NCBI RefSeq assembly: GCF_015831345.1
Contig: NZ_JADWYS010000001.1
Location: forward strand, 2,632,618-2,696,617
DNA: 64,000 bases
Reading direction: 5' to 3'
Origin: Caenimonas aquaedulcis
GTDB lineage: Bacteria; Pseudomonadota; Gammaproteobacteria; Burkholderiales; Burkholderiaceae_C
Position numbers and translations under genes: made by a program. The notes under the pieces were generated by a model. It was given only the letters and a program-made list of their open reading frames with translations, did no database searches and was not told the origin of the DNA. Position 1 is the first letter of the stretch. Each line of letters begins with the position of its first letter. Positions 2,398-15,899 of the stretch are shown here, one piece after another.

Positions 2398-3224
2398 GGT
2401 TGGCGCCAGCCGGTCCAGGCGCGCAGCCCCTCGAACCAGTAGTCATAGAAGGGATAGACCGGATCGCCGTACCACGTCCACAGCAACCAGCCCCAGTATC
2501 CGTAGAACACGAGGAAACCCACGAGCGTAGCCACGCACCCCCACACCACATGCGCGCCGCGCTCGGGCCATGAGCGGCCGTGCAGCACCCACAGCAGGGG
2601 CATGAGGATCGCGAGCGGGCCGTTGCTCAATTTAAAGGCTACGGAGGCCCCCGCGAAGAGCCCGGACAACAGCGGTAAGCGCGCAGGCGCCAGGACGCTG
2701 CCGGTGGGCGCAGCAGAGGGCTCCATCGCCAGCGCGATGGCCCACACGAGCGGGATCGACGCCATCACGTCGTTGGCCGTGGAATCGAACAGCGACAGCA
2801 CGACGCCGGTGAGGAACGCCAGGGCGACACCCAGCACACGCATGGCCACGCCATACCAGCTCGCTTCGGCAACGCAGCGCCGCGCCAGCATCCAGAGCGG
2901 TGGTACCGCCGCCAGGTTGATGGACGCGAGCACGGCGCCCGCCCAGGTTCCCGGCATGCCCGTCTGAAAGAGCTTGTAGAACGGCCAGTAAAGGTAGGGG
3001 TACTGGAACGACTGGTACGACGCCGCGAGGAAGTCGCGGTCGAAGCGCGGATGCTCGGCGATCCAGCCCAGATAGATGTGGTGGTTGAGCGCATCCCACG
3101 ACAGGCCGATGCCGCCGAGCGACACAGGGATCGCCACGAAAAGCGCCCAGGCGATGCACAGGATCGCCGCGAGTTCGAGGCGTGCGGAAGGAGGCGGGAA
3201 GTTGCGCAGGCGCTGCATGGTCAT
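2394..3224 (-). CDS. N-terminal half of a split GT-C membrane glycosyltransferase
   Basis: The 276-residue product is almost wholly membrane-embedded. After the first helix (ILCIAWALFVAIPVSL) it has GLSWDALNHHIYLGW, the acidic first-loop motif expected in GT-C enzymes that use polyprenyl-phosphate sugars. It ends abruptly at WFEGLRAWTGWRQP just where family members continue with a segment like the start of the next gene. The start chosen is the ATG at 3224, which overlaps the GT2 stop (ATGA) and gives MTMQRLRNF. The in-frame stretch upstream of it is antisense-quality Arg/Ala-rich sequence overlapping the GT2 gene. Likely role: adding a lipid-linked sugar to a periplasmic acceptor. Confidence 0.72.
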   Translation of the reverse strand: MTMQRLRNFPPPSARLELAAILCIAWALFVAIPVSLGGIGLSWDALNHHIYLGWIAEHPRFDRDFLAASYQSFQYPYLYWPFYKLFQTGMPGTWAGAVLASINLAAVPPLWMLARRCVAEASWYGVAMRVLGVALAFLTGVVLSLFDSTANDVMASIPLVWAIALAMEPSAAPTGSVLAPARLPLLSGLFAGASVAFKLSNGPLAILMPLLWVLHGRSWPERGAHVVWGCVATLVGFLVFYGYWGWLLWTWYGDPVYPFYDYWFEGLRAWTGWRQP

Positions 3225-4390
3225 TCCACGCGTGCGGAACGCCAGCAGAAGTGCAGGGCCCCGGCGAAGAAGGAGCCGATGGTGGCCTGCATGCCGGTGG
3301 CCATCAGCGTGACCGCGGGGATGGCGGATCGCATGGTCTCGAGCGGATCGAGCGGGCCGAACCCGCTGCGTCCCCAATCGAACGTGAGCCACAGGGACCA
3401 GACCAGGCCCGCGAGGAAGACCGAGAGGCCGAGCAGCAGGCCGTTCTCGATCGTGAAGGAGGAGCCCCAGCGGGTCATCCAAGGCGGCTCGGCCACCAGC
3501 CCCGCGAGCACTGCGATCCACTTGGTGAGGACGGCAAACAGGATGAACTGGACGCCCAGGATGGTCGCCCCTCCGAGGTACAGCAAGGTGTGGATGCCCA
3601 GGGGGATGGGTCCCACCTGTGGGCCCGCGAGGCCCAACAGCAGGCCGGACAGCCCCGCGACGAGGAGCGCGATGCCGGGGTAGAGAAACAGCCATCGCGG
3701 GCAGAACAGCAGCAGGAAGCGCAGGTGACGCCATCCGTCGCGCCAGGTGCGCAGGTGCGGCGGCCGGCCGCGGCCGTCGCGCCGCAACGCGGTGGGGACT
3801 TCCTCGATGCGCAGGCCCGCCAGTGCCGCCTTGGCGATCAGTTCGCTGGCGAATTCCATCCCGGTCGTGATGAGGCCCAACTGCTGCACGGACTCGCGCG
3901 AGAAGCCGCGCAAGCCGCAATGGAAGTCTCCGATGTGCGTGCGAAAGAAGAGTCGTCCGATGAAACTGAGCACGGGGTTGCCGAGATAGCGATGCAGGAA
4001 GGGCATCGCGCCCTGCGCGATGCCGCCCTGGAAACGGTTGCCCATCACGACGTGCGCGCCGCCGCGCAGTTGCTCCACGAATCCGCCGAGACGCGAGAAG
4101 TCGTAGCTGTCGTCCGCATCGCCCATGATGACGAAGCGGCCCCTTGCACTGGCGATGCCGGCTTGCAGCGCCGCGCCGTAACCGCGCTGCGGCACCCGTA
4201 CGACACGGGCGCCGGCCGCTTCGGCGATCTCCACGGAACCGTCGGTGGATCCGTTGTCGGCCACGAGGACCTCGCCGCGAATACCCGAACCCTGGATGAA
4301 GTCGCGCGCGGCGCGCACGCATGAGCCCAAGGTCCTCGCCTCGTTCAGGCATGGCATGAGGACAGTCAGTTCGCAGGTGGTATCGGTCAT
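3221..4390 (-). CDS. GT2 polyprenyl-phosphate sugar transferase (DPM1-like)
   Basis: The 389-residue protein opens with ELTVLMPCLNEARTLGSCV and carries the nucleotide-binding NGSTDGS and the acidic GDADDSYDF (DxD-like) motifs of family 2 glycosyltransferases. Catalytic domain ~residues 8-225 is followed by about four hydrophobic helices (FPYLG-like segments from ~230 on), as in dolichyl/undecaprenyl-phosphate glycosyltransferases with a membrane anchor. It probably makes the lipid-linked sugar donor used by the GT-C protein encoded immediately after it; the two genes overlap by ATGA. First gene of the coupled run, lying just after the pilin terminator. Confidence 0.86.
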   Translation of the reverse strand: MTDTTCELTVLMPCLNEARTLGSCVRAARDFIQGSGIRGEVLVADNGSTDGSVEIAEAAGARVVRVPQRGYGAALQAGIASARGRFVIMGDADDSYDFSRLGGFVEQLRGGAHVVMGNRFQGGIAQGAMPFLHRYLGNPVLSFIGRLFFRTHIGDFHCGLRGFSRESVQQLGLITTGMEFASELIAKAALAGLRIEEVPTALRRDGRGRPPHLRTWRDGWRHLRFLLLFCPRWLFLYPGIALLVAGLSGLLLGLAGPQVGPIPLGIHTLLYLGGATILGVQFILFAVLTKWIAVLAGLVAEPPWMTRWGSSFTIENGLLLGLSVFLAGLVWSLWLTFDWGRSGFGPLDPLETMRSAIPAVTLMATGMQATIGSFFAGALHFCWRSARVE

Positions 4391-4427: not shown

Positions 4428-4455
4428 AAAACGAGCGGCCTGGGCCGCTCGTTTT
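4428..4455 (-). terminator. Rho-independent terminator after the pilin gene
   Basis: Perfect 13-bp stem (4428-4440 with 4443-4455, GC-rich core) with a minimal loop, followed on the minus strand by a T-rich run. It lies 40 bp after the pilin stop and before the GT2 start, so it should isolate pilin transcription from the glycan genes. Confidence 0.85.
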
Positions 4456-4494: not shown

Positions 4495-5088
<594 letters not shown>

Positions 5089-5132: not shown

Positions 5133-7547
5133 CTATTTGATGCAGACGGACCGTACCTGCTTCAGGTCCGTCATCCCCATCATGATCTTTTCCATGCCGT
5201 CCATCTTCAGGGTGCGCATGCCGCCTTCCACCGCCGACGCGAACAGCTCCGCCACCCGGGCGCGTTCCTGGATCAGGCGCTTGGTGGGGTCGTCCGCGAC
5301 GAGCAGTTCGTGCAGGCCGATCCGGCCCTTGTAGCCTGTCTTGTTGCACTTGTCGCAGCCGTTGGCCTTGTAGAACTTCAGCCGGCCGTCCTGCCCATAG
5401 AGCTTGACCCAGTTCTCGTAGAGCTTCTTCGCCTCGCCTGCATAGTCCGCCTTCCAGGCGGCGGAGTGCCGCAATTCCTCGGCATATTCGGTGACGAACA
5501 ACTTGACCTCGTCGGCATCGGGGAAGTACTCCGTCTTGCAGTCGCAAAGCTTCTTGGCCAGGCGCTGCGCGAGGATGCCGAGCAGGGCGTCCGCAAAGTT
5601 GAACGGGTCCATGCCCATGTCCAGCAGGCGGATGATGGATTCCGGCGCCGAGTTCGTGTGCAGCGTGGAGAAGACGAGGTGGCCCGTGAGCGAAGCCTCC
5701 ACGCCCATGGACACTGTTTCCTTGTCGCGCGATTCGCCGACCATGATGATGTCGGGATCGGCGCGCAGGAAAGCCCGCATCACCAACGCGAAGTCGATGC
5801 CCGCCTTCTTGTTGATCTGCACCTGGCGAAGGCCCTTCTGCGTGATTTCGACCGGGTCCTCCGCCGTCCAGATCTTGGTGTCCGGCGTGTTGAGGAACTT
5901 CAGGATGGAATGCAGCGTGGTCGTCTTGCCCGAACCCGTCGGCCCGCAGACATAGAACAGGCCATAGGGCTTGCTCACCGTCTTTTCGAGCCGCTCCTTG
6001 TTGTGCGGGGTGAGTCCCAGCTTCTCCAGCGGAATCGGCTCGCCCGCGGCGAGGATACGCATGACCACGTCCTCGACGCCGCCGGCGGAGGGGATGGTCG
6101 CGACGCGCAGCTCGATGTCCAGCGGTCCGAACTTCTTGAACTTGATCTTTCCGTCCTGGGGCTTGCGCTTCTCGGAGATGTCGAGGTCGCACATGATCTT
6201 CAGGCGCGTGACCATCGCCTGCCGGAAATGCGCCGGCACCTCGATGTAGGGCTGCAGGCTGCCGTCGATGCGAAAGCGGATGCCCGTCTTGGCCTTGCCC
6301 GGCAGGGGCTCGACGTGGATGTCCGACACCTTCATGTTGTAGGCATCGACGATGACCTTGTTCACGAACTTCACCAGTTCGTTGTCGGCGGCCGCGGAGT
6401 CACCGAAGTCCTCGGAGCCCTCGTCGTCCACCGGCGCGCTGAGGTCGGCCAGCAGCTCGTCGATCGACGCGCCTTCCTCGCCGCCCGCGCCGTAGATCTG
6501 CGCGAGCGTTTCCTCGAACTCGGTTTGGGTGGTGACGCGATAGGTGAACTTCGACAGGCGGGAGAACACCTGCGGCACGATGCGCGAACCCCTGGTCGCC
6601 TCCGGGTCCAGGCACATCACCACGAGGCCCTCAGGCGATTCCTCCAGCGGGATCCAGCCCTGCTCCTGCAGGAATTCGCGCTTGAGGCTCCCGTGCAACT
6701 GCTCCGACCGGATGCGGCCCGCGTTGAAGGGCTCGTAGGGCATGCCGAAAAACTTCGCGAGCGAAGGCCCGATCTGGGCGGGCCGGATCGAGAAGCTCGC
6801 CATCAGCACATGCTCGACGGGCTTGGCTTCCTCGCGGGCCTGCTGGATGCAGTGCGCGAGTTCGTCCGCCGTCATGACGCCGGCAGAAACCAGCCCGTCG
6901 TACTTGGTGGCGCGGCGGCGCTGGCCTTCCTCGGCCTTCTGCATGCGCTGGCGGATCGCGGTGGCGAGGGTCTTGCACAGCTGTGTCGCGCCTTCGACCT
7001 CGAGATCACCGAACGGCTGGTCGCTCTTGTTGTTGATCACCTGCAGCACGCCGTGCAGGGTCTCGCCATCGAGGATGGGAACGATCATGAGCTGCTTGGT
7101 GCGGTATCCCGAGCGGCGGTCGATCTCCTTGGCAGTCGCGAAGCTGAGCGCCGGGTCGATGCGCTTGAGCGCCTCCTCGTCGTAGACGTCGGCGATGTTC
7201 AGCATGCGCTTGCTGAAGGCGCAGTAACCCGCGAGGCTTTGCGCGCTGATCGGCAGCTTCAGTTCCTTGCTGCTGTTCAGGCCCGTCTTGAGTTTGGAGA
7301 CGATCGCGGTGCGGTCTTCGTTCACCGCGTAGAGCGTCAGGCGGTCGGCGTTGAACAGCTTGCAGATGTCCGGGCTCGCGTCCAGGATGATCTGGTCGAT
7401 GTTCTCCGTCTCGTGGATCTTGGTGGTGACGACCTGCAGCTGCTTGTAGAACAGCGCCTCGAACGACACGCCGCGCTTTTCCGGCGGCAGCATCTGCGAG
7501 TCGTAGAACGCCTGCGAGTCCTTTTCCGGTTTCAATACCGCATTCAT
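5133..7547 (-). CDS. GAF-GspE/PilB-type secretion ATPase
   Basis: The 804-residue protein has three parts: a GAF-like sensor (~30-210), an MshEN/T2SSE N-terminal domain (~225-370), and a GspE/PilB ATPase (~390-790). The ATPase shows Walker A GPTGSGKTTT (~537), the Asp box FLRADPDIIMVG, the His box STLHTN and two Cys pairs, CDC and CDKC, as a zinc site. Such ATPases power type II secretion or pilus assembly at the inner membrane. The usual GEIRD motif is GESRD here and the first Cys pair is CxC instead of CxxC, with ~60 residues between the pairs. The GAF domain suggests allosteric control by a small molecule, plausibly the cyclic nucleotide handled by its operon partners. Start overlaps the MBL stop (ATGA); last gene of the operon. 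Confidence 0.87.
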   Translation of the reverse strand: MNAVLKPEKDSQAFYDSQMLPPEKRGVSFEALFYKQLQVVTTKIHETENIDQIILDASPDICKLFNADRLTLYAVNEDRTAIVSKLKTGLNSSKELKLPISAQSLAGYCAFSKRMLNIADVYDEEALKRIDPALSFATAKEIDRRSGYRTKQLMIVPILDGETLHGVLQVINNKSDQPFGDLEVEGATQLCKTLATAIRQRMQKAEEGQRRRATKYDGLVSAGVMTADELAHCIQQAREEAKPVEHVLMASFSIRPAQIGPSLAKFFGMPYEPFNAGRIRSEQLHGSLKREFLQEQGWIPLEESPEGLVVMCLDPEATRGSRIVPQVFSRLSKFTYRVTTQTEFEETLAQIYGAGGEEGASIDELLADLSAPVDDEGSEDFGDSAAADNELVKFVNKVIVDAYNMKVSDIHVEPLPGKAKTGIRFRIDGSLQPYIEVPAHFRQAMVTRLKIMCDLDISEKRKPQDGKIKFKKFGPLDIELRVATIPSAGGVEDVVMRILAAGEPIPLEKLGLTPHNKERLEKTVSKPYGLFYVCGPTGSGKTTTLHSILKFLNTPDTKIWTAEDPVEITQKGLRQVQINKKAGIDFALVMRAFLRADPDIIMVGESRDKETVSMGVEASLTGHLVFSTLHTNSAPESIIRLLDMGMDPFNFADALLGILAQRLAKKLCDCKTEYFPDADEVKLFVTEYAEELRHSAAWKADYAGEAKKLYENWVKLYGQDGRLKFYKANGCDKCNKTGYKGRIGLHELLVADDPTKRLIQERARVAELFASAVEGGMRTLKMDGMEKIMMGMTDLKQVRSVCIK

Positions 7548-8335
7548 AGGTCGAACTCCTGCCCCGCCCGAAGCCAGCGGATGTCATGTGTCACGTTGGG
7601 GCCGAAAGGCTGCGTCTGGTCGAACTTCTGGATCTCCGCCATGATCAGCTCGGTCTCCGCCGGCTTGGTGTGCGTGATGTAGATCGGGAAGGACTTGGTC
7701 TTGTCGATGCAATCCAGCTCCTCGGCCAGCGCATGCGGCGACAGGTGCAGGCTGCGCTTGGCGAGGTCCTTTTCGCGGTTGCTGAACGCCGTCTCGATGA
7801 TGAGCGCCGCGACGTTCATTTGGTTGACGCGGCGCCAGAACGCCGGATTGCGCTCCGTATCGCCGCTGAAAATCCAGCAGCCCTTGCCCGAGGTCACCGC
7901 GTAGCCCACCGCCGGCACCGTGTGCACTGCGGGCAGCACCTCGATGCGCTTGCCGGTGATGTCCAGGGTCTGTCCGACCTGGATCTCGTGGAAGGTGATG
8001 AAGGGCTTCTCGGGCGTGGGAATGCGGCTGAAGTCGGGCCAGATGACGTTGTTGAAGACGTGGCTCTTGAGCGCCGCGATCGTGCCGGCCAGCGCGTGGA
8101 TCTGTACAGGCTTGGTGAGCGTCGAGGCGATCGCGTCGATCATGAGCGGCAGGGCCGCCACGTGGTCCAGGTGGGAGTGCGTGAGCAGCACGTGGTCCAC
8201 CTGCCGCATTTCCTCGAGCGTGAGGTCGCCCACGCCGGTGCCTGCATCGACGAGCACGTCGGCGTCGATCAGGAAGGACGTCGTGCGGCAGTCCTTCGCG
8301 ATCGCGCCAGAGCAACCCAGCACCCGCACCTTCAT
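7544..8335 (-). CDS. Metallo-beta-lactamase-fold hydrolase, class II cyclic-nucleotide phosphodiesterase-like
   Basis: The 263-residue protein has the metal motif HSHLDH (~residue 73), a distal FSGDTE with the bridging Asp, and C-terminal YITHTKP. Length and the AALPLMIDAI segment after the metal motif resemble class II 3',5'-cyclic nucleotide phosphodiesterases (PDE1/CpdP type); RNase Z-like enzymes are the main alternative. Its gene lies 12 bp after that of a class III cyclase and overlaps the ATPase gene by 4 bp, which favours breakdown of the cyclase product. That assignment is inferred from family resemblance plus context. Confidence 0.75.
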   Translation of the reverse strand: MKVRVLGCSGAIAKDCRTTSFLIDADVLVDAGTGVGDLTLEEMRQVDHVLLTHSHLDHVAALPLMIDAIASTLTKPVQIHALAGTIAALKSHVFNNVIWPDFSRIPTPEKPFITFHEIQVGQTLDITGKRIEVLPAVHTVPAVGYAVTSGKGCWIFSGDTERNPAFWRRVNQMNVAALIIETAFSNREKDLAKRSLHLSPHALAEELDCIDKTKSFPIYITHTKPAETELIMAEIQKFDQTQPFGPNVTHDIRWLRAGQEFDL

Positions 8336-8347
8336 TCGACAAGGTTC

Positions 8348-10606
8348 CTATTTGGTCTCGAAATTGGTCGCCCCGTCCCACTCCGGGTCGAAGGGGAGCA
8401 ATCTCATCGAGGCTACACGCTCGCTGTACAGTTCGTAAAGGTATTTTTTTGCATTCATCCGCTGCAGGTTCAGCAGAAGAAGGTCGCACTGGTCCCAGTC
8501 CTGCGCGCGGTAGGCCTTGAGCAGCGCCGCCCAGGTTTTCAGCTCGTCGCTGTGGGCCTTGTCCAGCCGGTCGGCGGGCGCCAGCGGCCAGAAAATGGCC
8601 ACGGCCTGCTCCTTGCCTTTCACCCGGACCCGATCGAGCTCCTGCCAGGCGAACTGCGGCGCGATTTTGCGGGTGGTTTCGCTCACCACTATGTCCACGC
8701 CGTAGGCCTTGGACAGTCCCTCCAGCCGGGAGCCGAGGTTGACCGAGTCGCCGATCACGGTATAGGCCCGGCGGATGTCCGATCCCATGTCCCCCACGCA
8801 CATCGTCCCGGTGTTCAGCCCGATCCCGATGCCGATCTCGGGCATCCCCTTGGCGCGGTGCTCCTCGTTGATCTTGCGCACCGCGTTGGCCATTTCCATG
8901 GCGGTCTTCACGGCCAGGTGCGCGTGCTCGGCGGTCTCCACCGGTGCGCCCCAGAACGCCATGACGCAGTCGCCCATGTACTTGTCGATGGTGCCCCGGT
9001 TGCCGCGGATGATGTCGGTGAGGCGGTTGAAGACGGCGTTGAGCAGTTCCTGGAGCTGGGTCGGCTCCATGGTCTCCGACATCTTGGTGAAGCCGCGCAT
9101 GTCGCAGAACATCACCGTCAGTTCCTTGTTGGTGGCCTTCATCGAATAGGCCTCGGGGTCCTTGACCATCTCGTCGACCAGTTCGGGCGGGACATAGGTG
9201 CCGAACAGGTTTGCAAGTTCGCGCTTGCTTCGGCTTTCCACGAAGTAGCCGTAACTCATGTTGAGGGCGAAAGCCGTCAGGCACATCACCAGCGTGGTCG
9301 CGAGCGGCAGCACCCAGCCCTTGCCCAGATAGAGGTAGAAGTTCAGGCCGACCACCAGGCCGATCACCACGACGCTCAGGAGCACGGCACGGGTGGCGGT
9401 GAGCAGGGGAAGCCCGATCGCCAGGACCAGGCCGGCGAGGAGGACCACCGTCACGTCGTAGCCGATGGCGTAGTCCGGCTTGAAGAGGATCTTGCCGTCG
9501 AGGAAGCCGGCGATGACGTTGGCGTGCGTTTCGACGCCGGGGTAGGTGCCCCCCACCGGGGTCACGCGCAAGTCCTGCAGGCCCGGCGCGGTAGTGCCCA
9601 CGAGGACGATCCGGTCTTTCAGGGTGCCGGGCTGCAGGCGGTGGGCCACGAGATCGGACGCCGAAACGTAGCGGAAGCTGCCGGCTTGCGGGCCGCCGGG
9701 ACCGCGGAAAGGGACCAGCGTGGCGACCCGATGGTCGACGGGAATGCCCAGCACCTTGTCCGCCGCGACGTTCAACCGGATGTTTTCGAGGCTCTGGTAG
9801 TCCCGCCCGACCAGGCGCGAGTCGTCGCGCGGGAATCCCGGCTCCACCTTCGGCAGGCCCAGCAGCGCACGGAACATCGCGAGCGACAGGGACTCGTAGT
9901 AGGCGCCCTTGTATTCGGCCACGAGCGGGATGGATCGCACCACCCCGTCCTCTTCGATGATCGGGTTGAAGAAGCCCGCCAGCGGCGCGGCGCGGGCGAT
10001 CTGCTCGATGTTGCTTCCGTAGCCGTTGTAGCCGATGAAAGTGATGGGGCGCCCGCGCAGCGCGTCCTTGGTCATCACGGGCGCGGGCAGGACGCCGTTG
10101 GTGCGGCCATCGCGGTCGCTCGTGAAGTAATAACCCAGGACGACCGGCTTTTTCTCGATGGCCTTGGCGAAGAGCGCGTCGTAGTCGAGCGACGCCTGCA
10201 TCTGGTTGACGCGCTCGCCGAACCCGGCCTGGTCCTTCAATTCCCCCTGCGCGAGTTGCCGCAGCCGCTTCAGTCCGGAGCTTTCGTCGGCCTCGGCGAA
10301 CACGATGTCGAAGCCCACGAGCGCGACCTGCTGGCGGTCGAACAGGTCCTGGACCATCTCCGCGACGCGGTTGCGGCTCCAGGGCCAGCGGCCAACCTCA
10401 GCCAGGCTCTTCTCGTCGATGTCGACGATGACGATGCGTTCGTCGGCCTTGTTCGACAGCGTCGCGCGGATGCGCGCGTCGTAGATGATGTCGTCGAGGC
10501 GCTGCAGGAAGCCGATCGGCACCAGGCCGATGGCATGCACGAGCGCGAACACCAGCGGGATCAGCGTCACCGCGATGCGTGGCCAGTGTTTCCAGAGCAA
10601 GCCCAT
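8348..10606 (-). CDS. CHASE2-class III adenylate/guanylate cyclase
   Basis: The 752-residue membrane protein has an N-terminal anchor, a periplasmic CHASE2 sensor (~35-345, with DERIVIVDIDEKSLAEVGRW), three closely spaced helices (~385-450) and a cytoplasmic cyclase domain (~490-670). Catalytic signs: FCDMRGFT (first metal Asp), IDKYMGDCVMAFWG (base-reading Lys and second metal Asp) and YTVIGDSVNLGSRLEG (transition-state Asn and Arg). Lys plus Thr at the base-selecting positions matches class IIIb adenylate cyclases, so cAMP is the likely product. A ~70-residue tail follows. It sits 51 bp after the FHA gene and just before the phosphodiesterase-like gene. A second CHASE2 protein, the kinase, is in the same operon. 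Confidence 0.89.
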   Translation of the reverse strand: MGLLWKHWPRIAVTLIPLVFALVHAIGLVPIGFLQRLDDIIYDARIRATLSNKADERIVIVDIDEKSLAEVGRWPWSRNRVAEMVQDLFDRQQVALVGFDIVFAEADESSGLKRLRQLAQGELKDQAGFGERVNQMQASLDYDALFAKAIEKKPVVLGYYFTSDRDGRTNGVLPAPVMTKDALRGRPITFIGYNGYGSNIEQIARAAPLAGFFNPIIEEDGVVRSIPLVAEYKGAYYESLSLAMFRALLGLPKVEPGFPRDDSRLVGRDYQSLENIRLNVAADKVLGIPVDHRVATLVPFRGPGGPQAGSFRYVSASDLVAHRLQPGTLKDRIVLVGTTAPGLQDLRVTPVGGTYPGVETHANVIAGFLDGKILFKPDYAIGYDVTVVLLAGLVLAIGLPLLTATRAVLLSVVVIGLVVGLNFYLYLGKGWVLPLATTLVMCLTAFALNMSYGYFVESRSKRELANLFGTYVPPELVDEMVKDPEAYSMKATNKELTVMFCDMRGFTKMSETMEPTQLQELLNAVFNRLTDIIRGNRGTIDKYMGDCVMAFWGAPVETAEHAHLAVKTAMEMANAVRKINEEHRAKGMPEIGIGIGLNTGTMCVGDMGSDIRRAYTVIGDSVNLGSRLEGLSKAYGVDIVVSETTRKIAPQFAWQELDRVRVKGKEQAVAIFWPLAPADRLDKAHSDELKTWAALLKAYRAQDWDQCDLLLLNLQRMNAKKYLYELYSERVASMRLLPFDPEWDGATNFETK

Positions 10607-10657
10607 CAGGCCCTACCTCGCTGGTGGTGATGCGGGGCGCGCTGGGCGCCGGCGCGA

Positions 10658-11347
10658 TCAGGGCTGCACAAACTGCATCTGCGTGCCGGCCAGTTCCAGC
10701 AGGTCACCGTTCTTGAGGGTGACCGGCTCCGCGCCGATGGCCGCGCCGTTGAGCGTGGGCTTGTTGGCGCCTTCGACGTGCGCCACCACGAACCCGTGGG
10801 GCCGCTTGGTGATGGCCGCCACCGCGACACCCGGCTTGCCGATGGTGGTGACGACCTTGACGAGGGGCACTTCGCGCCCCGCGGCGGCGCCCGAGAGCAC
10901 CTTGATCGCCGCGTTGATGTGCCCGAGGTCGCTCGCCTGGGCAGCGCCGCTGGATGCGGGAGCTGCCTGGGCGCCGGCCGCGGCGGGCGCCGCCGGACCG
11001 GGCATCGGCGGGACCATGCCCGCCTTGATGATCATCGTCTTCTCGAAGGTGGGGCCGGCGACTTCGTTGATGTACTTGATCTTGTACTTGCCGATTTCCA
11101 CCGTGTCGTTATTTTGCAACAGCTGCTTCTTCACGGCCTTGCCGTTGACATAGGTGCCGTTGGTGCTGTTCAGGTCCTCGAGATAGACCTCGTTACCGCT
11201 CATCTGCAGGACCGCGTGTTCGCCGCTGACGGCCAGGTTGTCGATCACGATGTCGTTGTACGGCCGGCGCCCCAGAGAGGTCCGGTCCTTGGTCAACTGC
11301 ACTTCCTTGATGACAACACCGTCGATCGAAACGATCATTTTCGGCAT
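10658..11347 (-). CDS. Double-FHA phosphothreonine-binding protein
   Basis: The 229-residue protein has a full N-terminal FHA domain (~20-95) with TSLGRRPYNDIVID, VSGEHAVL and LEDLNSTNGTYVNG, the phosphothreonine-binding Arg, Ser and His/Asn set. A Pro/Ala-rich linker follows (~115-145), then a second, degenerate FHA-like domain (~155-229) where GKPGVAVAAI replaces the Gly-Arg loop but TLNG remains. It would read phosphothreonine made by the kinase two genes upstream, acting as a cytoplasmic adaptor. A GGAGTG ribosome site precedes the ATG. Domain 2 may have lost phosphopeptide binding. Confidence 0.88.
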   Translation of the reverse strand: MPKMIVSIDGVVIKEVQLTKDRTSLGRRPYNDIVIDNLAVSGEHAVLQMSGNEVYLEDLNSTNGTYVNGKAVKKQLLQNNDTVEIGKYKIKYINEVAGPTFEKTMIIKAGMVPPMPGPAAPAAAGAQAAPASSGAAQASDLGHINAAIKVLSGAAAGREVPLVKVVTTIGKPGVAVAAITKRPHGFVVAHVEGANKPTLNGAAIGAEPVTLKNGDLLELAGTQMQFVQP

Positions 11348-11396
11348 GGTCCACTCCTGTCTTTAAGACTCGTTATTCGGGAACTAGTACCAAAGG

Positions 11397-12182
11397 CTAT
11401 TTTCCCAGCATTCTGGAAATCAGGCCCCGCTTTTTGGACGCGAGACTCGCCTGCGCCACGAAAACCGAGATGTTGTCGCGCCCGCCGTTCGCATTCGCCG
11501 CATCGATCAATTGAGCGGCTTTCTGCTCCAGCGTCGCGTCTCCAGCCAGGATTTTCGCGATCCCCTCATCATCCACCATGTCGGACAGACCGTCCGAGCA
11601 CATCATGTAGATATCGCCCGGTTCGACCCTGTGCTCGTTGACTTCAAGCAACACTGCGTCTTCCACGCCGAGGGCGCGGGTGACCAGATTCTTGTTGCTG
11701 GAAGTCGCCGCCTGCTCCGGCGTGATCAGCCCGGCGTCCATCTGCTCCTGCAGCAGCGAGTGGTCCTTGGTGACCTGGGTGATCTCGTTGCCCCGTAACC
11801 GGTAGCAGCGCGAGTCCCCGATGTGCCCGATCAGCACGCGCCCGTCCTGGAAGACGCCGACGACCAGCGTCGTGCCCATGCCGCTGTAGTGCGGATTCGA
11901 ATTGGCGGCATTGAAGATGGAGCGGTTCGCGTTGTCGACGCAGATCTCCATCGCGCGGCGCACTTCACGGGTGTTGGCGTGGCGCCCCGCCTGCGACAGC
12001 CAGCGCCCCAGTTCCGACTTGATGAACGTGGTGGCCATGCCGCTGGCGATCTCGCCGGCGTTGTAGCCACCCATGCCGTCGGCCAGGATGCCGAGGCGCA
12101 CCGGTTCGTCGAAGGTGACGGAATCCTCGTTGTTCTCGCGCGCAAGGCCCGGATCGGTGCGGATGCAAAACTCGTAGTTCAT
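11397..12182 (-). CDS. PP2C-family Ser/Thr phosphatase (Stp1-like)
   Basis: The 261-residue protein starts MNYEFCIRTDPGLARENNED and shows PP2C metal motifs: RENNEDS, LGILADGMGGYNAGE, HIGDSRCYR, MCSDGLSD and GGRDNISV. It would remove phosphate from Ser/Thr targets, most plausibly those of the kinase encoded 10 bp upstream. The start at 12182 is chosen because family alignment begins there; an upstream in-frame extension is low-complexity Arg/Pro sequence overlapping the kinase gene. The C-terminus is short and basic (KKRGLISRMLGK). Confidence 0.9.
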   Translation of the reverse strand: MNYEFCIRTDPGLARENNEDSVTFDEPVRLGILADGMGGYNAGEIASGMATTFIKSELGRWLSQAGRHANTREVRRAMEICVDNANRSIFNAANSNPHYSGMGTTLVVGVFQDGRVLIGHIGDSRCYRLRGNEITQVTKDHSLLQEQMDAGLITPEQAATSSNKNLVTRALGVEDAVLLEVNEHRVEPGDIYMMCSDGLSDMVDDEGIAKILAGDATLEQKAAQLIDAANANGGRDNISVFVAQASLASKKRGLISRMLGK

Positions 12183-12192
12183 AGGTTGCCGG

Positions 12193-15012
12193 TCAGGACT
12201 CGCCGGATCCGCCAGTTCCTGGCTTGCGGAACACGTCGGTCTTGGCAAAGGCGGCGTCTCCTCCGTCATTTTTGTGCGTCGGATCATAGCCCGGCGGCGA
12301 CGCCGCGGGGGGCGGCATCCCGACCACCGTGGCTTCGAACACCGGCGCGGCGTCCGCGGAAGGGTGCGCGCCGGTGGCAAACGCCACCGTCTTGTCCGCG
12401 TTGGCGACGTTGACCTCGTCGTCGGGGCGCATGACGACGCCGGGGGGCGTGGCGGGACCGGTTCTCGCCGCGGGCGCGGGCATCGGCGCACCGGACAACT
12501 CCGCCAGCACCGAACGCAGGTCGCCGGCGAACTGGTCGCCGTCCTGGTAGCGGGTCTCGGGGCGCTTGCTCAGGGACAGGGCGACGATGTTGGCCAGCCG
12601 CTCGCTGATGTCCTTGCGCACGATGCGGATGTCCGGCGCTTCCTCGTTGGCGATCTTGTACATCAGCTCCGCCATCGAGTCGCCGCGGAAGGGCAGCACG
12701 CCGGTGAGCATCTGGAACAGCATGACGCCGAGCGAGTAGAGGTCCGAGCGGCCGTCCACCTTCTTGCCGGCGATCTGCTCGGGCGACATGAAGCTCGGCG
12801 TGCCCAGCACGAGGCCCGTCTTCGTCTTGCTGGAGTCCGTGATGCGCGCGATGCCGAAGTCGGTCACCTTGACGGTGTCGCTGTCGAACTCGTACATGAT
12901 GTTCGCGGGCTTGATGTCCCGGTGCACCACGTTCTGCTTGTGCGCGTAGCCGAGCGCCTCGGCCACGCGCGCGACGATCGACACGACCTTGGCGGCGGGC
13001 AGCAGCTGACCGTCCTTGCAGAAATCGACCAGGTCCTTGCCCTTGAGGAATTCCATGGCGATGTAGGCGAGGTCATGCTCCTCGCCCGCATCGAAGATGG
13101 TGACGATGTTCTGGTGCTGCAGGCGGCCGGCGGTCTCCGCCTCGCGAAAGAAGCGCTCGCGCGCATCGGCGAGTTCCTCGCCCTCGAATTCCTGCGACAG
13201 CGCCATCGTCTTGATCGCGACGACGCGGCCGATCTTCGGGTCCTTGCCGAGGTACACCACGCCCATCGCGCCCTTGCCGAGCTCCTTCTCTACCTGGTAG
13301 CGGCCCAGCATGGGTTTTTCCACGCCGCCGCCATCCAGCAGCATCGTGCCGCCCGGGTGCGCCCCGCCGCCGCCGAGGATGACGGTTTCGGACAGGTTCT
13401 TCGCGCGATTGAGCTTGGCGTCCAGGCCCTTGTAGCCTTTGTCCAGGGTGGCCATGTATTCGTAGACCGCCTGCACCTTGTTGAACTGCCGCTTGCGCTC
13501 GAAATCGAGCGCCAGGTTGCCCAGGTTGTCCATCAGCGCGTCGCTGTGCGGCACGCGGCGGAAACGGTCGAATGCGGCGTCCAGCTGGCCCTGTCCCTGC
13601 ATCGCGAGGCCCATCATGCGATTGGTCTCGGCCGACTCTTCATCGGACTTGAGCTTGCCGGCCTCGGTGACGAGGAAGCGCTTGGTCGTGAGCGCGAGGT
13701 GCCCGATCACGAGCAGCGTGGCCGGGAACACGAGCTGCAGCCAGGTCGACGCGCCGGCTAGCAGGCCGAACTCCGCGGCCAGCAGCGCGACGAAGAGCAC
13801 CGCGGTGACCATGCCCGCCAGCCCCGCGCTCAGGCGCGGCAGGCCGCCGATGACGTAGGCGGCCACCAGCAGCAACGCCCCCAGCGCAGCCCAGCCGCCC
13901 CAGGCCGGCTGCACGATGAAGTGCTCGCTGAGGATGCTGGAAGTGGTGTGGGCGATCATTTCCACCGGCGTGACGGCGGGCGTTCCGGGCACAGCGAATT
14001 GCGAGCCCACCCCCGCGGCCGTGGCGCCGATGAGCACGATCTTGCCGGTGTATTTGCTAGCCGGGATCTTGCCGTTCAGCACGTCGTAGAAGGAGTCGAT
14101 CGCGAACGGCGGCTTGCCGTCGCGACCCTTGTAGAACTGCGGGAACATGACCGCCGCTTCGTCCGTCTTGACTCGCAGCTTGCCGATCTGCACGGAATCG
14201 CCTGCATTCAGGCGAATGTCTGATGTCGTGAGGTTCAGGCTCTTGAGCGCGGCGAGCAGGCTCATCGAAGGCACCGCGTTCCCGTCGTAATTCACGAGCA
14301 GGGGCTCCGTGCGCACAGCGCCGTCCTTGTCGTTGAGCTGGTTGAGGTGGCCAATCCCAGCCGCCGCATTCGCAATGATGTCGATCGGCTGCTGAGTGGC
14401 CATGGCGGGGACGGAGAATCCCCCGGTGTCCTTGACGCTGCTCTTCAACGCTGCGGCAGGCAGCCCCTTGTCTACTTTGCCTTGTGCCTCGCCTAGCTGG
14501 AAGAAGGACGGAATCACCACGTTGCCCGCCTTGGCCATGCTGGCGGCGAGTTTGGCATCGGTGTCCAGCGTGGCTTCGGCTTCCGCGACGACCTTGTGCA
14601 GGTTGTCCACCAGCGCATTGCCGCCCGTGCTTCCTTCCGGCCCGAGCGCTTCCTTGAGCTTGCGGATGAACACGAGGCCGCGGTCCGTCTGGGGCTCGAA
14701 GAAGAACACCGTGTTGACGATGGTCTTGGCCTTGGCGGCGGCGAGCTTGTCGATGAGCTGCGCGTGGATGTCGCGCGACCAGGGCCAGCGTCCGATGTTC
14801 GCGATGCTCTGGTCGTCGATGGCGATGATCGCGATGCGGTCGGAGGGCTGCCGTCCGCTGCTGGTGCTCGCGTAATCGTAGAAGCGGCGCTCCATCGTGC
14901 CGATGGTGTCGGTGCCGAGGTTCAGCAACACCACGGCCGCCACGACGAGGACGCCCATGAACCAGTCCGCGCGCCAGAAACGGCCACGTTTTGCCGAAGA
15001 AGATGTGCTCAC
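12193..15012 (-). CDS. CHASE2-domain transmembrane Ser/Thr protein kinase
   Basis: The 939-residue protein has a basic N-terminus, one anchor helix, a periplasmic CHASE2 domain (~35-360, with SDRIAIIAIDDQSIANIGRW), three helices (~370-440), a ~110-residue helical linker, and a Hanks-type kinase domain (~567-840). Kinase motifs: GKGAMGVVYLG loop, VAIK lysine, VVHRDIKPAN catalytic loop (~694), TDFGIA, and GTPSFMSPEQ activation segment. A Pro/Ala-rich cytoplasmic tail ends it, which is unusual since most bacterial kinases place the kinase N-terminal and the sensor outside at the C-terminus. First gene of the six-gene operon; phosphatase and FHA reader follow. Confidence 0.92.
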   Translation of the reverse strand: MSTSSSAKRGRFWRADWFMGVLVVAAVVLLNLGTDTIGTMERRFYDYASTSSGRQPSDRIAIIAIDDQSIANIGRWPWSRDIHAQLIDKLAAAKAKTIVNTVFFFEPQTDRGLVFIRKLKEALGPEGSTGGNALVDNLHKVVAEAEATLDTDAKLAASMAKAGNVVIPSFFQLGEAQGKVDKGLPAAALKSSVKDTGGFSVPAMATQQPIDIIANAAAGIGHLNQLNDKDGAVRTEPLLVNYDGNAVPSMSLLAALKSLNLTTSDIRLNAGDSVQIGKLRVKTDEAAVMFPQFYKGRDGKPPFAIDSFYDVLNGKIPASKYTGKIVLIGATAAGVGSQFAVPGTPAVTPVEMIAHTTSSILSEHFIVQPAWGGWAALGALLLVAAYVIGGLPRLSAGLAGMVTAVLFVALLAAEFGLLAGASTWLQLVFPATLLVIGHLALTTKRFLVTEAGKLKSDEESAETNRMMGLAMQGQGQLDAAFDRFRRVPHSDALMDNLGNLALDFERKRQFNKVQAVYEYMATLDKGYKGLDAKLNRAKNLSETVILGGGGAHPGGTMLLDGGGVEKPMLGRYQVEKELGKGAMGVVYLGKDPKIGRVVAIKTMALSQEFEGEELADARERFFREAETAGRLQHQNIVTIFDAGEEHDLAYIAMEFLKGKDLVDFCKDGQLLPAAKVVSIVARVAEALGYAHKQNVVHRDIKPANIMYEFDSDTVKVTDFGIARITDSSKTKTGLVLGTPSFMSPEQIAGKKVDGRSDLYSLGVMLFQMLTGVLPFRGDSMAELMYKIANEEAPDIRIVRKDISERLANIVALSLSKRPETRYQDGDQFAGDLRSVLAELSGAPMPAPAARTGPATPPGVVMRPDDEVNVANADKTVAFATGAHPSADAAPVFEATVVGMPPPAASPPGYDPTHKNDGGDAAFAKTDVFRKPGTGGSGES

Positions 15013-15181
15013 TTGCCCGCCCCTCGTGCGAAGAACTGATCGACACCGCGGACAACCACGGCATTACCAACACCCGACGCCACGAAGGGTGCAGGCCTCC
15101 GGTGGGACGTTAACAGACGCAACAGCGACGGACAAGGGACTTTGTCACGTCGCTACTACGTTTTGTTGCATTTGTGCACGG

Positions 15182-15209: not shown

Positions 15210-15899
15210 TCAAGCCTCTTGCGTCTTGTGCGCGCGCGCCTGCAGCGCTTTGCCCACACCGACCACGAAGACGGCGCCTGCGGCGGCCGCCACATAGTGC
15301 AGCCAGGGGTTCGCATGCGCGAAGTCCGACAGCACCACGTCGCTCGCGATCGTCTCGCCACCGACCCAGCCGATGAGGCCCGCGCCGAGCACCACGATGA
15401 TGGGGAAGCGCTCCATCAGCTTGACCATAAGGGTCGCGCCGAAGATCACCAGCGGAATGCTGATCGCCAGGCCCAGGATGAGCAGCACGGTGCTGCCTTT
15501 GGCTGCCGCAGCCACGGCGATGACGTTGTCCAGGCTCATCACCAGGTCGGCGATCAGGATGGTCCGGATCGCGGCGCCGAGGCTGCCGTATTCCTTGACT
15601 TCGCCGTCATCCTCACCGTCCTCTTCGGACAGCAGCTGGATGCCGATCCAGAGCAGCAGTAAGCCGCCGACGACCTGCAGGTAGGGCAGTGAAAGCAGCT
15701 TGGCGGCCACCACGGTCAGGATGATCCGCAGGACCACGGCAGCGCCGGAGCCGAACAGGATGGCCTTCTTTTGCTGCTGCGGGGGCAGGGAGCGTGCCGC
15801 CAGGGCAATCACGACGGCGTTGTCGCCGGAGAGGATGATGTTGATCCAGATGATCTTCAACAGCCCGATCCAGAACTCGGGACTCTGCAGCAGTTCCAT
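15210..15899 (-). CDS. TerC-family integral membrane protein
   Basis: The 229-residue protein has about seven hydrophobic helices and the family's paired acidic motifs: ILSGDNAVVIALA near residue 23 and ADLVMSLDNVIAVAA near 118. An acidic cytoplasmic stretch (LLSEEDGEDDGEVKEYG) lies between helices 3 and 4. TerC/YjbE-type proteins are linked to metal (mainly manganese) efflux or metalation of secreted proteins; substrate is not shown here. The gene follows sucD but is isolated from it by a terminator. No manganese riboswitch-like fold was recognised in the short leader. Confidence 0.86.
   Translation of the reverse strand: MELLQSPEFWIGLLKIIWINIILSGDNAVVIALAARSLPPQQQKKAILFGSGAAVVLRIILTVVAAKLLSLPYLQVVGGLLLLWIGIQLLSEEDGEDDGEVKEYGSLGAAIRTILIADLVMSLDNVIAVAAAAKGSTVLLILGLAISIPLVIFGATLMVKLMERFPIIVVLGAGLIGWVGGETIASDVVLSDFAHANPWLHYVAAAAGAVFVVGVGKALQARAHKTQEA

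Follow-up and report, generated by a model that had tools for sequence, protein, structure and literature searches.

Why should a single presumed bacterial operon join two CHASE2 sensor proteins, a set of genes for Ser/Thr phosphorylation, a predicted maker and breaker of a cyclic nucleotide and an ATPase of the type that extends pili? The question is raised by a row of six genes on the minus strand of Caenimonas aquaedulcis (Burkholderiales), at positions 5133-15012 of a 64,000-nucleotide stretch of contig NZ_JADWYS010000001.1 (assembly GCF_015831345.1, positions 2,632,618 to 2,696,617), here called the window. The row begins with a CHASE2-Ser/Thr kinase (12193..15012; 939 amino acids from a GTG start; CHASE2 at residues 24-384 and the kinase domain at 572-822 by Pfam), followed by a Stp1-type PP2C protein phosphatase (11397..12182; 261 amino acids; 249.3 bits against an NCBIfam cut-off of 230) and an FHA protein (10658..11347; 229 amino acids), in which a canonical FHA domain at residues 23-86 precedes an EKTM sequence whose Thr104 is a candidate phospho-switch. 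Next come a predicted class III adenylyl cyclase with a CHASE2 region (8348..10606; 752 amino acids; CHASE2 at 23-393, cyclase domain at 493-668) and a protein of the metallo-β-lactamase (MBL) fold resembling class II cyclic nucleotide phosphodiesterases, to which it is assigned with a presumed substrate (7544..8335; 263 amino acids). The last gene encodes a GspE/PilB-type ATPase with an N-terminal GAF domain, here called GAF-PilB (5133..7547), which comprises the GAF domain at about residues 40-205, a degenerate MshEN-like N1 domain at 267-356 and the ATPase at 387-798. A type IV pilin gene on the same strand (4495..4968; 157 amino acids from ATG; Pfam Pilin and N_methyl) begins 164 bp past GAF-PilB. 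The initial annotation of this region had described six consecutive minus-strand genes with gaps of -4 to 51 bp, and the open reading frames and their translations give the same coordinates and gaps (10, 49, 51, 12 and -4 bp). It had also seen in them a writer, an eraser and a reader of Ser/Thr phosphorylation, a maker and a probable breaker of a cyclic nucleotide and a motor whose GAF domain could bind cyclic AMP (cAMP), next to a pilin gene; these assignments hold up against the profile matches, catalytic residues, gene pairings and sequence searches given below.

With moderate confidence, the operon is read as a module for signalling in which cAMP directly governs a dedicated, additional motor for pilus extension. 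The CHASE2 cyclase would detect an envelope cue and produce cAMP, the MBL enzyme encoded beside it would degrade cAMP, and the GAF domain at the N terminus of the PilB-type ATPase would bind cAMP and thereby switch the motor, which would assemble, or prime, pili from the adjacent pilin alongside the canonical PilB of the genome. A parallel phosphorylation arm, made up of the CHASE2 kinase, PP2C and the FHA protein, would tune the motor or its docking, with Thr104 of the FHA protein as the most likely site of the switch. The reading rests on gene order, intact active sites, co-occurrence and the kinship of the GAF domain with cyclic-nucleotide-binding GAF domains; the ligand, the direction of its effect, the target of the kinase and the cue are what we infer.

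Conserved gene order across the Burkholderiales, which the initial annotation had named as a check, was found in two sets of relatives, an even draw of 200 Burkholderiales genomes (the order sample) and 80 loci with a GAF-PilB relative (the named loci, the best 80 of 589). The order is identical in all 148 loci that have at least two of the genes, which rules out a chance neighbourhood. Among the best 80 of 589, the closest motor, from a Ramlibacter metagenome-assembled genome, is 91% identical, and the GAF half of the motor occurs in 92 of the 200 order-sample genomes and in 46 of 109 genera. Partner genes in the order-sample loci were scored by profiles on open reading frames. Of 93 places with the GAF half, 53 have a CHASE2 cyclase gene upstream of the motor, at most 8 kb away and on its strand, and 4 of the 93 lack a full motor; partner counts refer to 73 of the 89 loci with a called motor, 16 with less than 8 kb upstream being omitted. 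Near the motor in these 73 loci are the genes for the MBL protein (67), PP2C (62), FHA (62), cyclase (46) and kinase (45), together with those for TerC (20) and a cyclic-nucleotide-binding/rhodanese protein (9), so the most constant partner is the MBL gene and not the cyclase. PP2C and FHA are never apart, and the kinase is never found without both. All five upstream genes are present in 41 of the 73 loci and in 33 of the 80 named loci, where many contigs end early (32 of the 53 with at least 8 kb upstream). The six-gene row is therefore no chance cluster, because both its order and its co-occurrence are conserved among relatives. Beyond the Burkholderiales, few genomes have the motor and its sequence has diverged: a class sample of 274 holds 8 besides the organism's own, with identities of 28-33%. 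One of these loci (L207) has a CHASE2 cyclase end to end with the motor, at another (L209) a cyclase gene and a GAF-HD-GYP gene lie no more than about 8 kb from it, and none of the profiled partners was detected at the other six.

Decaying genes are also ruled out, since the active-site positions checked are invariant in the open reading frames long enough to be scored, those under the length limit being omitted from the counts. Pfam matches exceed the gathering score for CHASE2 in both proteins, Pkinase, PP2C_2, FHA, Guanylate_cyc, Lactamase_B_2, PDEase_II, GAF, MshEN and T2SSE. The kinase retains the GxGxxG, VAIK, HRD, DFG and TP..E positions in 85/85 relatives of at least 700 amino acids, PP2C its metal-binding Asp and Gly positions in 125/125 (a neighbouring Arg is Lys in 5), and the FHA protein R27, S41 and H44 in 130/130. 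D502, D546, K542, T616, N623 and R627 of the cyclase are kept in 95/95 relatives of at least 600 amino acids; two metal-binding Asp, a base pair of Lys and Thr/Asp and an Asn/Arg are taken here as the marks of class III adenylyl cyclases, the Lys/Thr pair (K542/T616) marking those that use ATP. In the MBL protein, HxHxDH, H138, D159 and H222 are present in 129/129 relatives. The Walker A, Asp and His boxes of GAF-PilB are found in 165/165 sequences and each of the four Cys of a zinc motif in 163 or 164 of 165, all of which we take to be marks of GspE/PilB ATPases.

GAF-PilB matches T2SSE with 374 bits, although its 459.9 bits stay below the cut-off of the type IVa PilB equivalog TIGR02538 (675.65), which the canonical PilB of the same genome, adjoining a PilC/GspF-family gene, exceeds at 809 bits. 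Also encoded in the genome are PilT, another PilB-like ATPase (C1:1958453) and, adjoining a GspD secretin, one more ATPase. That GAF-PilB is the only PilB is ruled out by the canonical PilB and PilT elsewhere; it is an extra motor in its own genome. Another PilB-like match at an E value of 1e-150 exists in 47 of 51 motor-bearing genomes tested, above the PilB cut-off in 21 of the 51. In four genomes of one genus (G015, G146, G183 and G063, with loci L181, L186, L189 and L177), no other PilB match reaches 1e-150, and the GAF motor may thus be the main extension ATPase there. A motor of the MshE kind, which responds to cyclic di-GMP (c-di-GMP), is ruled out: the start of the c-di-GMP motif (RLGxx..G) is found in 0/166 MshEN-like domains, and the best partial match, 4-7 of 11 positions, is slightly above that of shuffled sequence (also 4-7). 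A pilin gene on the motor strand lies within 4 kb downstream in 38 of 72 order-sample loci and in 35 of 52 named loci. With both strands counted, 47 pilins occur in 281 kb downstream against 0 in 665 kb upstream in the order sample, and 47 in 203 kb against 0 in 425 kb in the named loci.

What the motor may read is suggested by its GAF domain, which sequence searches place in the cyclic-nucleotide GAF group. Among solved structures, Anabaena CyaB2 is the first match to the GAF domain of the window (E 8.8e-23 over two domains) and also gives the best single domain, with 56.1 bits against 32.3 for the next, 4mcw, and 25.4 for PDE10A. A profile of 29 GAF sequences again finds CyaB2 first, at 131.7 bits as the sum of its two GAF domains, and of the 19 top-ranked chains 18 belong to CyaB2 or PDE2/5/6/10. 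In CyaB2 GAFb, cAMP is contacted by Arg291, Thr293, Ile308, Asp356 and Asn359 (PMC4411481; this and the papers cited below are represented by excerpts of their text). These residues align to R69, T71, L86, D143 and S146 of the window protein, the Asn359 position being Thr or Ser in the family, and they are conserved as R69 in 161/163, T71 in 159/163, V/I/L86 in 159/163, D143 in 165/165 and T/S146 in 165/165 relatives. All 8 relatives outside the order keep R, T, D and S/T, with Phe or Tyr at position 86. The contact residues are kept in 19/19 loci that have lost both cyclase and MBL gene, and a comparison of these 19 loci with 29 that have both shows no sign of GAF decay in identity to the window (GAF 71 vs 75%, ATPase 85 vs 88%). 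The likeliest ligand would be cAMP, with other ligands possible.

Genomes with the motor also retain a class III cyclase. Where no adjacent CHASE2 cyclase was detected, at least one class III cyclase is encoded in 27/27 genomes examined, and the named relatives that have lost cyclase and MBL gene have one in 19/19, with an MBL gene kept in 0/18. Genomes without GAF-PilB have a class III cyclase in 29 of 57. The difference (46/46 motor genomes against 29/57 controls, p 1.1e-6; 17/17 against 24/44 genera, p 4.7e-4) is given by p values in which effects of kinship and genome size remain.

The match of the MBL protein to Pfam PDEase_II (PF02112) spans only residues 44-135 and scores 48.3 bits (cut-off 23.7); the profile of the protein finds as the best solved relative yeast PDE1, a class II cyclic-nucleotide phosphodiesterase (6.4e-13; next, 5.8e-11). 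The gene is also present in 20 of the 57 genomes without GAF-PilB, from which 11 loci were scored, ten with the MBL gene and one with the cyclase only. Three of them (L212, L215 and L216) carry a CHASE2 cyclase and an MBL gene as a pair that overlaps or is separated by 13 bp, and none of motor, kinase, PP2C and FHA is present there. Another (L217, in G049) lacks the motor gene and has the row of kinase, PP2C, FHA, cyclase and MBL, in which the cyclase match is shortened, followed by a pilin, and three (L219, L220 and L221) have PP2C, FHA and MBL without cyclase; a pilin is nearby in 6 of the 11. Because the pairing of cyclase and MBL gene exists independently of the motor, the MBL protein is more readily seen as a cyclic-nucleotide enzyme, and its predicted role as the breaker is supported.

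How the phosphorylation arm may be joined to this is suggested by the kinase and the cyclase. The initial annotation had proposed that both input proteins share the same CHASE2 fold, so that a single cue could drive both arms. CHASE2 is indeed present in both and the two genes change together among relatives, but identity between the two CHASE2 regions is 24%, a third CHASE2 protein from this genome resembles each of them at least as closely (25 and 27%), and the step from a shared fold to one cue is therefore not warranted. The same 24% identity rules out a recent duplication of one CHASE2 sensor. The third protein (L003; G000:C1:3590652-3591632) has a cyclase-like C-terminal domain in which the stretch matching the Lys region of the operon cyclase reads differently, and its substrate or activity may differ from that of the operon enzyme. 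Among the 62 order-sample loci with PP2C and FHA, kinase and cyclase are both present in 42 and both absent in 16, while 3 have the kinase only and 1 the cyclase only. This joint loss is not the deletion of a single block, because PP2C and FHA, which lie between the two, often stay (16 of 62). On a 125-row FastTree of the motor with 16 independent pairs, the changes of kinase and cyclase agree in direction in 10.2 pairs and are opposed in 0.0 (median p 0.002), against 2.5 and 0.5 for cyclase and PP2C (median p 0.5). Exceptions are 8 named loci in which the kinase is kept without the cyclase (L007, L010, L026, L033, L035, L036, L039 and L040). A coupled input to kinase and cyclase stays likely because the two change together on the tree. 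Within this arm, the Thr104 of the EKTM sequence is present in 115/128 relatives; a Thr linked to an FHA domain acts as a phospho-switch in OdhI and GarA, and by analogy Thr104 is plausibly one.

The six genes of the initial annotation stand as a module, but its wider parts were overlooked, as was the place of the MBL gene as the most constant partner. Basal relatives have a gene that combines a cyclic-nucleotide-binding domain with a rhodanese domain and that lies between the MBL gene and the motor in 23/23 loci carrying it (for example, L071:8787-9935, L068:8830-9912, L075:7418-8506 and L065:3362-4507), and its phosphate-binding FGE..R pocket is intact in 22/22 distinct sequences. Both domains are common to the 120 listed database relatives of this protein, for which no function is given there. 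The gene directly after the motor encodes a GAF-HD-GYP protein at 66 of 83 loci in the order sample and at 13 of 65 named loci (for example, L071:12321-13919). The GAF domain of this protein resembles PDE5, a hint that a cyclic nucleotide controls c-di-GMP breakdown. The genome of C. aquaedulcis itself gives no GAF-HD-GYP match and only partial matches to the cyclic-nucleotide-binding/rhodanese protein. A more elaborate form of the proposal is offered tentatively: a motor gated allosterically by cAMP would have its own cyclase and breaker, the CHASE2 sensor of the kinase would be tied to the cyclase in evolution, both envelope sensors thereby forming one coincidence switch on a surface pilus, and the basal cyclic-nucleotide-binding/rhodanese and GAF-HD-GYP proteins would link the system to c-di-GMP.

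Several features of the GAF domain weigh against cAMP as the ligand. The NKFDE motif is half complete, with N and F invariant and K, D and E not; the Arg, Asp and Thr positions are present in 4mcw too; and the per-domain lead of CyaB2 in the profile search is modest, GAFb scoring 72.4 bits against 63.8 for 4mcw, followed by PDE10A (59.8), CyaB2 GAFa (57.1) and PDE2A GAF-B (52.6). The structure model of the motor, used for its GAF part only (mean pLDDT 71, pTM 0.38; the ATPase is poor, with stretches under 50 between residues 454 and 646), is recognized as a GAF fold by Foldseek and VIA-align without the cAMP binders being singled out, and VIA-align ranks the GAF domains of PtsP over them. Such features would fit a GAF domain that binds another small ligand, such as cGMP or another nucleotide or metabolite, with local cAMP acting via CRP-type regulators and the motor merely co-regulated. 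PDE2/5/6, which bind cGMP, are close behind CyaB2, isolated CyaB2 GAFb binds cGMP and cAMP alike (PMC4411481), basal operons encode a separate cyclic-nucleotide-binding protein, and CRP-like matches to the cyclic-nucleotide-binding domain exist elsewhere in the genome. This explanation is nevertheless rather unlikely: CyaB2 tops both sequence searches, the contact residues are near-universal, the operon cyclase carries the Lys/Thr pair seen in adenylyl cyclases, and the MBL gene accompanies the motor in nearly all loci (67/73).

The MBL protein might instead be an RNase Z-like or other hydrolase, tied to the motor for reasons unrelated to the cyclase. It scores 33.7 bits under the NCBIfam model for cyclic nucleotide-degrading phosphodiesterases (NF041851, cut-off 400) and higher under RNase Z models, all far under their cut-offs; it is found without a local cyclase in 22 of the 73 loci, and 5 control genomes have it and no class III cyclase, other cyclase classes not having been searched for. 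Against this stand the PDEase_II and PDE1 matches, the cyclase-MBL pairs outside the module, the joint changes of cyclase and MBL gene (same direction in 6.3 and opposite in 0.2 of the 16 pairs, median p 0.03) and the enrichment of class III cyclases in genomes that have the MBL gene without GAF-PilB (15 of 20, against 14 of 37 lacking it; p 0.012), which together make such a hydrolase quite improbable. It is also unlikely that two independent neighbours, a phosphorylation arm with another target and a cAMP-motor arm, are joined by co-transcription alone. The stripped forms would suit such neighbours, namely TerC-MBL-motor in 5 of the 73 loci (of the genes scored) and cyclase-MBL alone in 3, as would the low identity of the CHASE2 regions and the 8 named loci with kinase and no cyclase, but kinase and cyclase, two genes apart, are mostly kept or lost jointly while PP2C and FHA stay, in the loci as on the tree. 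A cassette of the type VI secretion system (T6SS) was considered as well. Genes for a kinase, a PP2C and an FHA protein are grouped in the threonine phosphorylation pathway of that system (PpkA/PppA/Fha). The FHA protein of the operon scores 39.6 bits against the TagH cut-off of 120.25 (TIGR03354), unlike that pathway, and such a cassette is ruled out by this score; no T6SS gene was noticed among the neighbours examined, in which no search aimed at T6SS genes was made.

Upstream of the row, a TerC-family membrane protein is encoded on the same strand (15210..15899), 197 bp from the kinase gene. TerC is a frequent upstream neighbour, found in 55 of the 125 loci whose upstream sequence spans 8 kb or more, and is kept even in the minimal form with MBL gene and motor; in L181, a universal stress protein gene lies between TerC and MBL. 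Past the pilin, a 12-pair inverted repeat with A/T ends (4428..4455) is a weak candidate terminator, being the longest of 10 found where 9.7 are expected in shuffled sequence. The promoter scan of the region gave 1 site against 1.5 expected, no excess over chance, and the Rfam scan gave no match. A family 2 glycosyltransferase gene follows the pilin in the window (3221-4390, minus strand), and in L007 the gene after the pilin (13393-15105, plus strand) encodes a protein glycosylation ligase of the PglL type; the pilin may carry glycans.

Parts of this arrangement resemble known systems. Like MshE and c-di-GMP-binding PilB (PMC5013675), GAF-PilB is an extension ATPase of the GspE/PilB type that carries a second-messenger domain at its N terminus, although its MshEN-like domain is without the c-di-GMP motif and a cyclic-nucleotide-type GAF domain stands in front. 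Like TfpB of Acinetobacter baylyi, it is a second, phylogenetically distinct PilB-like motor beside a canonical PilB (PMC8213720; PMC11656802), whereas its score under the TfpB model (NF053534, 584 positions) is 379.1 bits against a cut-off of 850, and the term GAF is absent from the excerpted text of the TfpB paper (PMC8213720). In Anabaena CyaB2 (PMC4411481) and Leptospira Lcd1 (PMC6416229), a GAF domain reads cAMP and controls the attached enzyme, as predicted here, but their output is a cyclase or a diguanylate cyclase and not a pilus motor. In the Chp-CyaB-cAMP-Vfr system of Pseudomonas, an adenylyl cyclase and cAMP likewise regulate pili (PMC11656802); there they act on transcription via Vfr, while here the predicted reader is the motor itself, with a kinase arm in addition. 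As far as the excerpted sources go, the messenger that acts directly on PilB-type motors is c-di-GMP (PMC5013675; PMC11656802) and cAMP acts on pili via transcription (PMC11656802). No account of the operon or of a GAF-bearing PilB was found in the literature searched, the coverage of which excludes most subscription journals.

The role of a common but unnamed motor, found in 46 of 109 genera, is at stake, in a case where one module seems to serve both Ser/Thr phosphorylation and cAMP. Ramlibacter tataouinensis has three PilB paralogs (PMC3164672), and the proposed control, if true, could explain the extra PilB paralogs in Burkholderiales. It would constitute a direct, fast route from cAMP to a surface machine. 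The gene set suggests that, in some bacteria, a pilus is turned on or off by cAMP itself.

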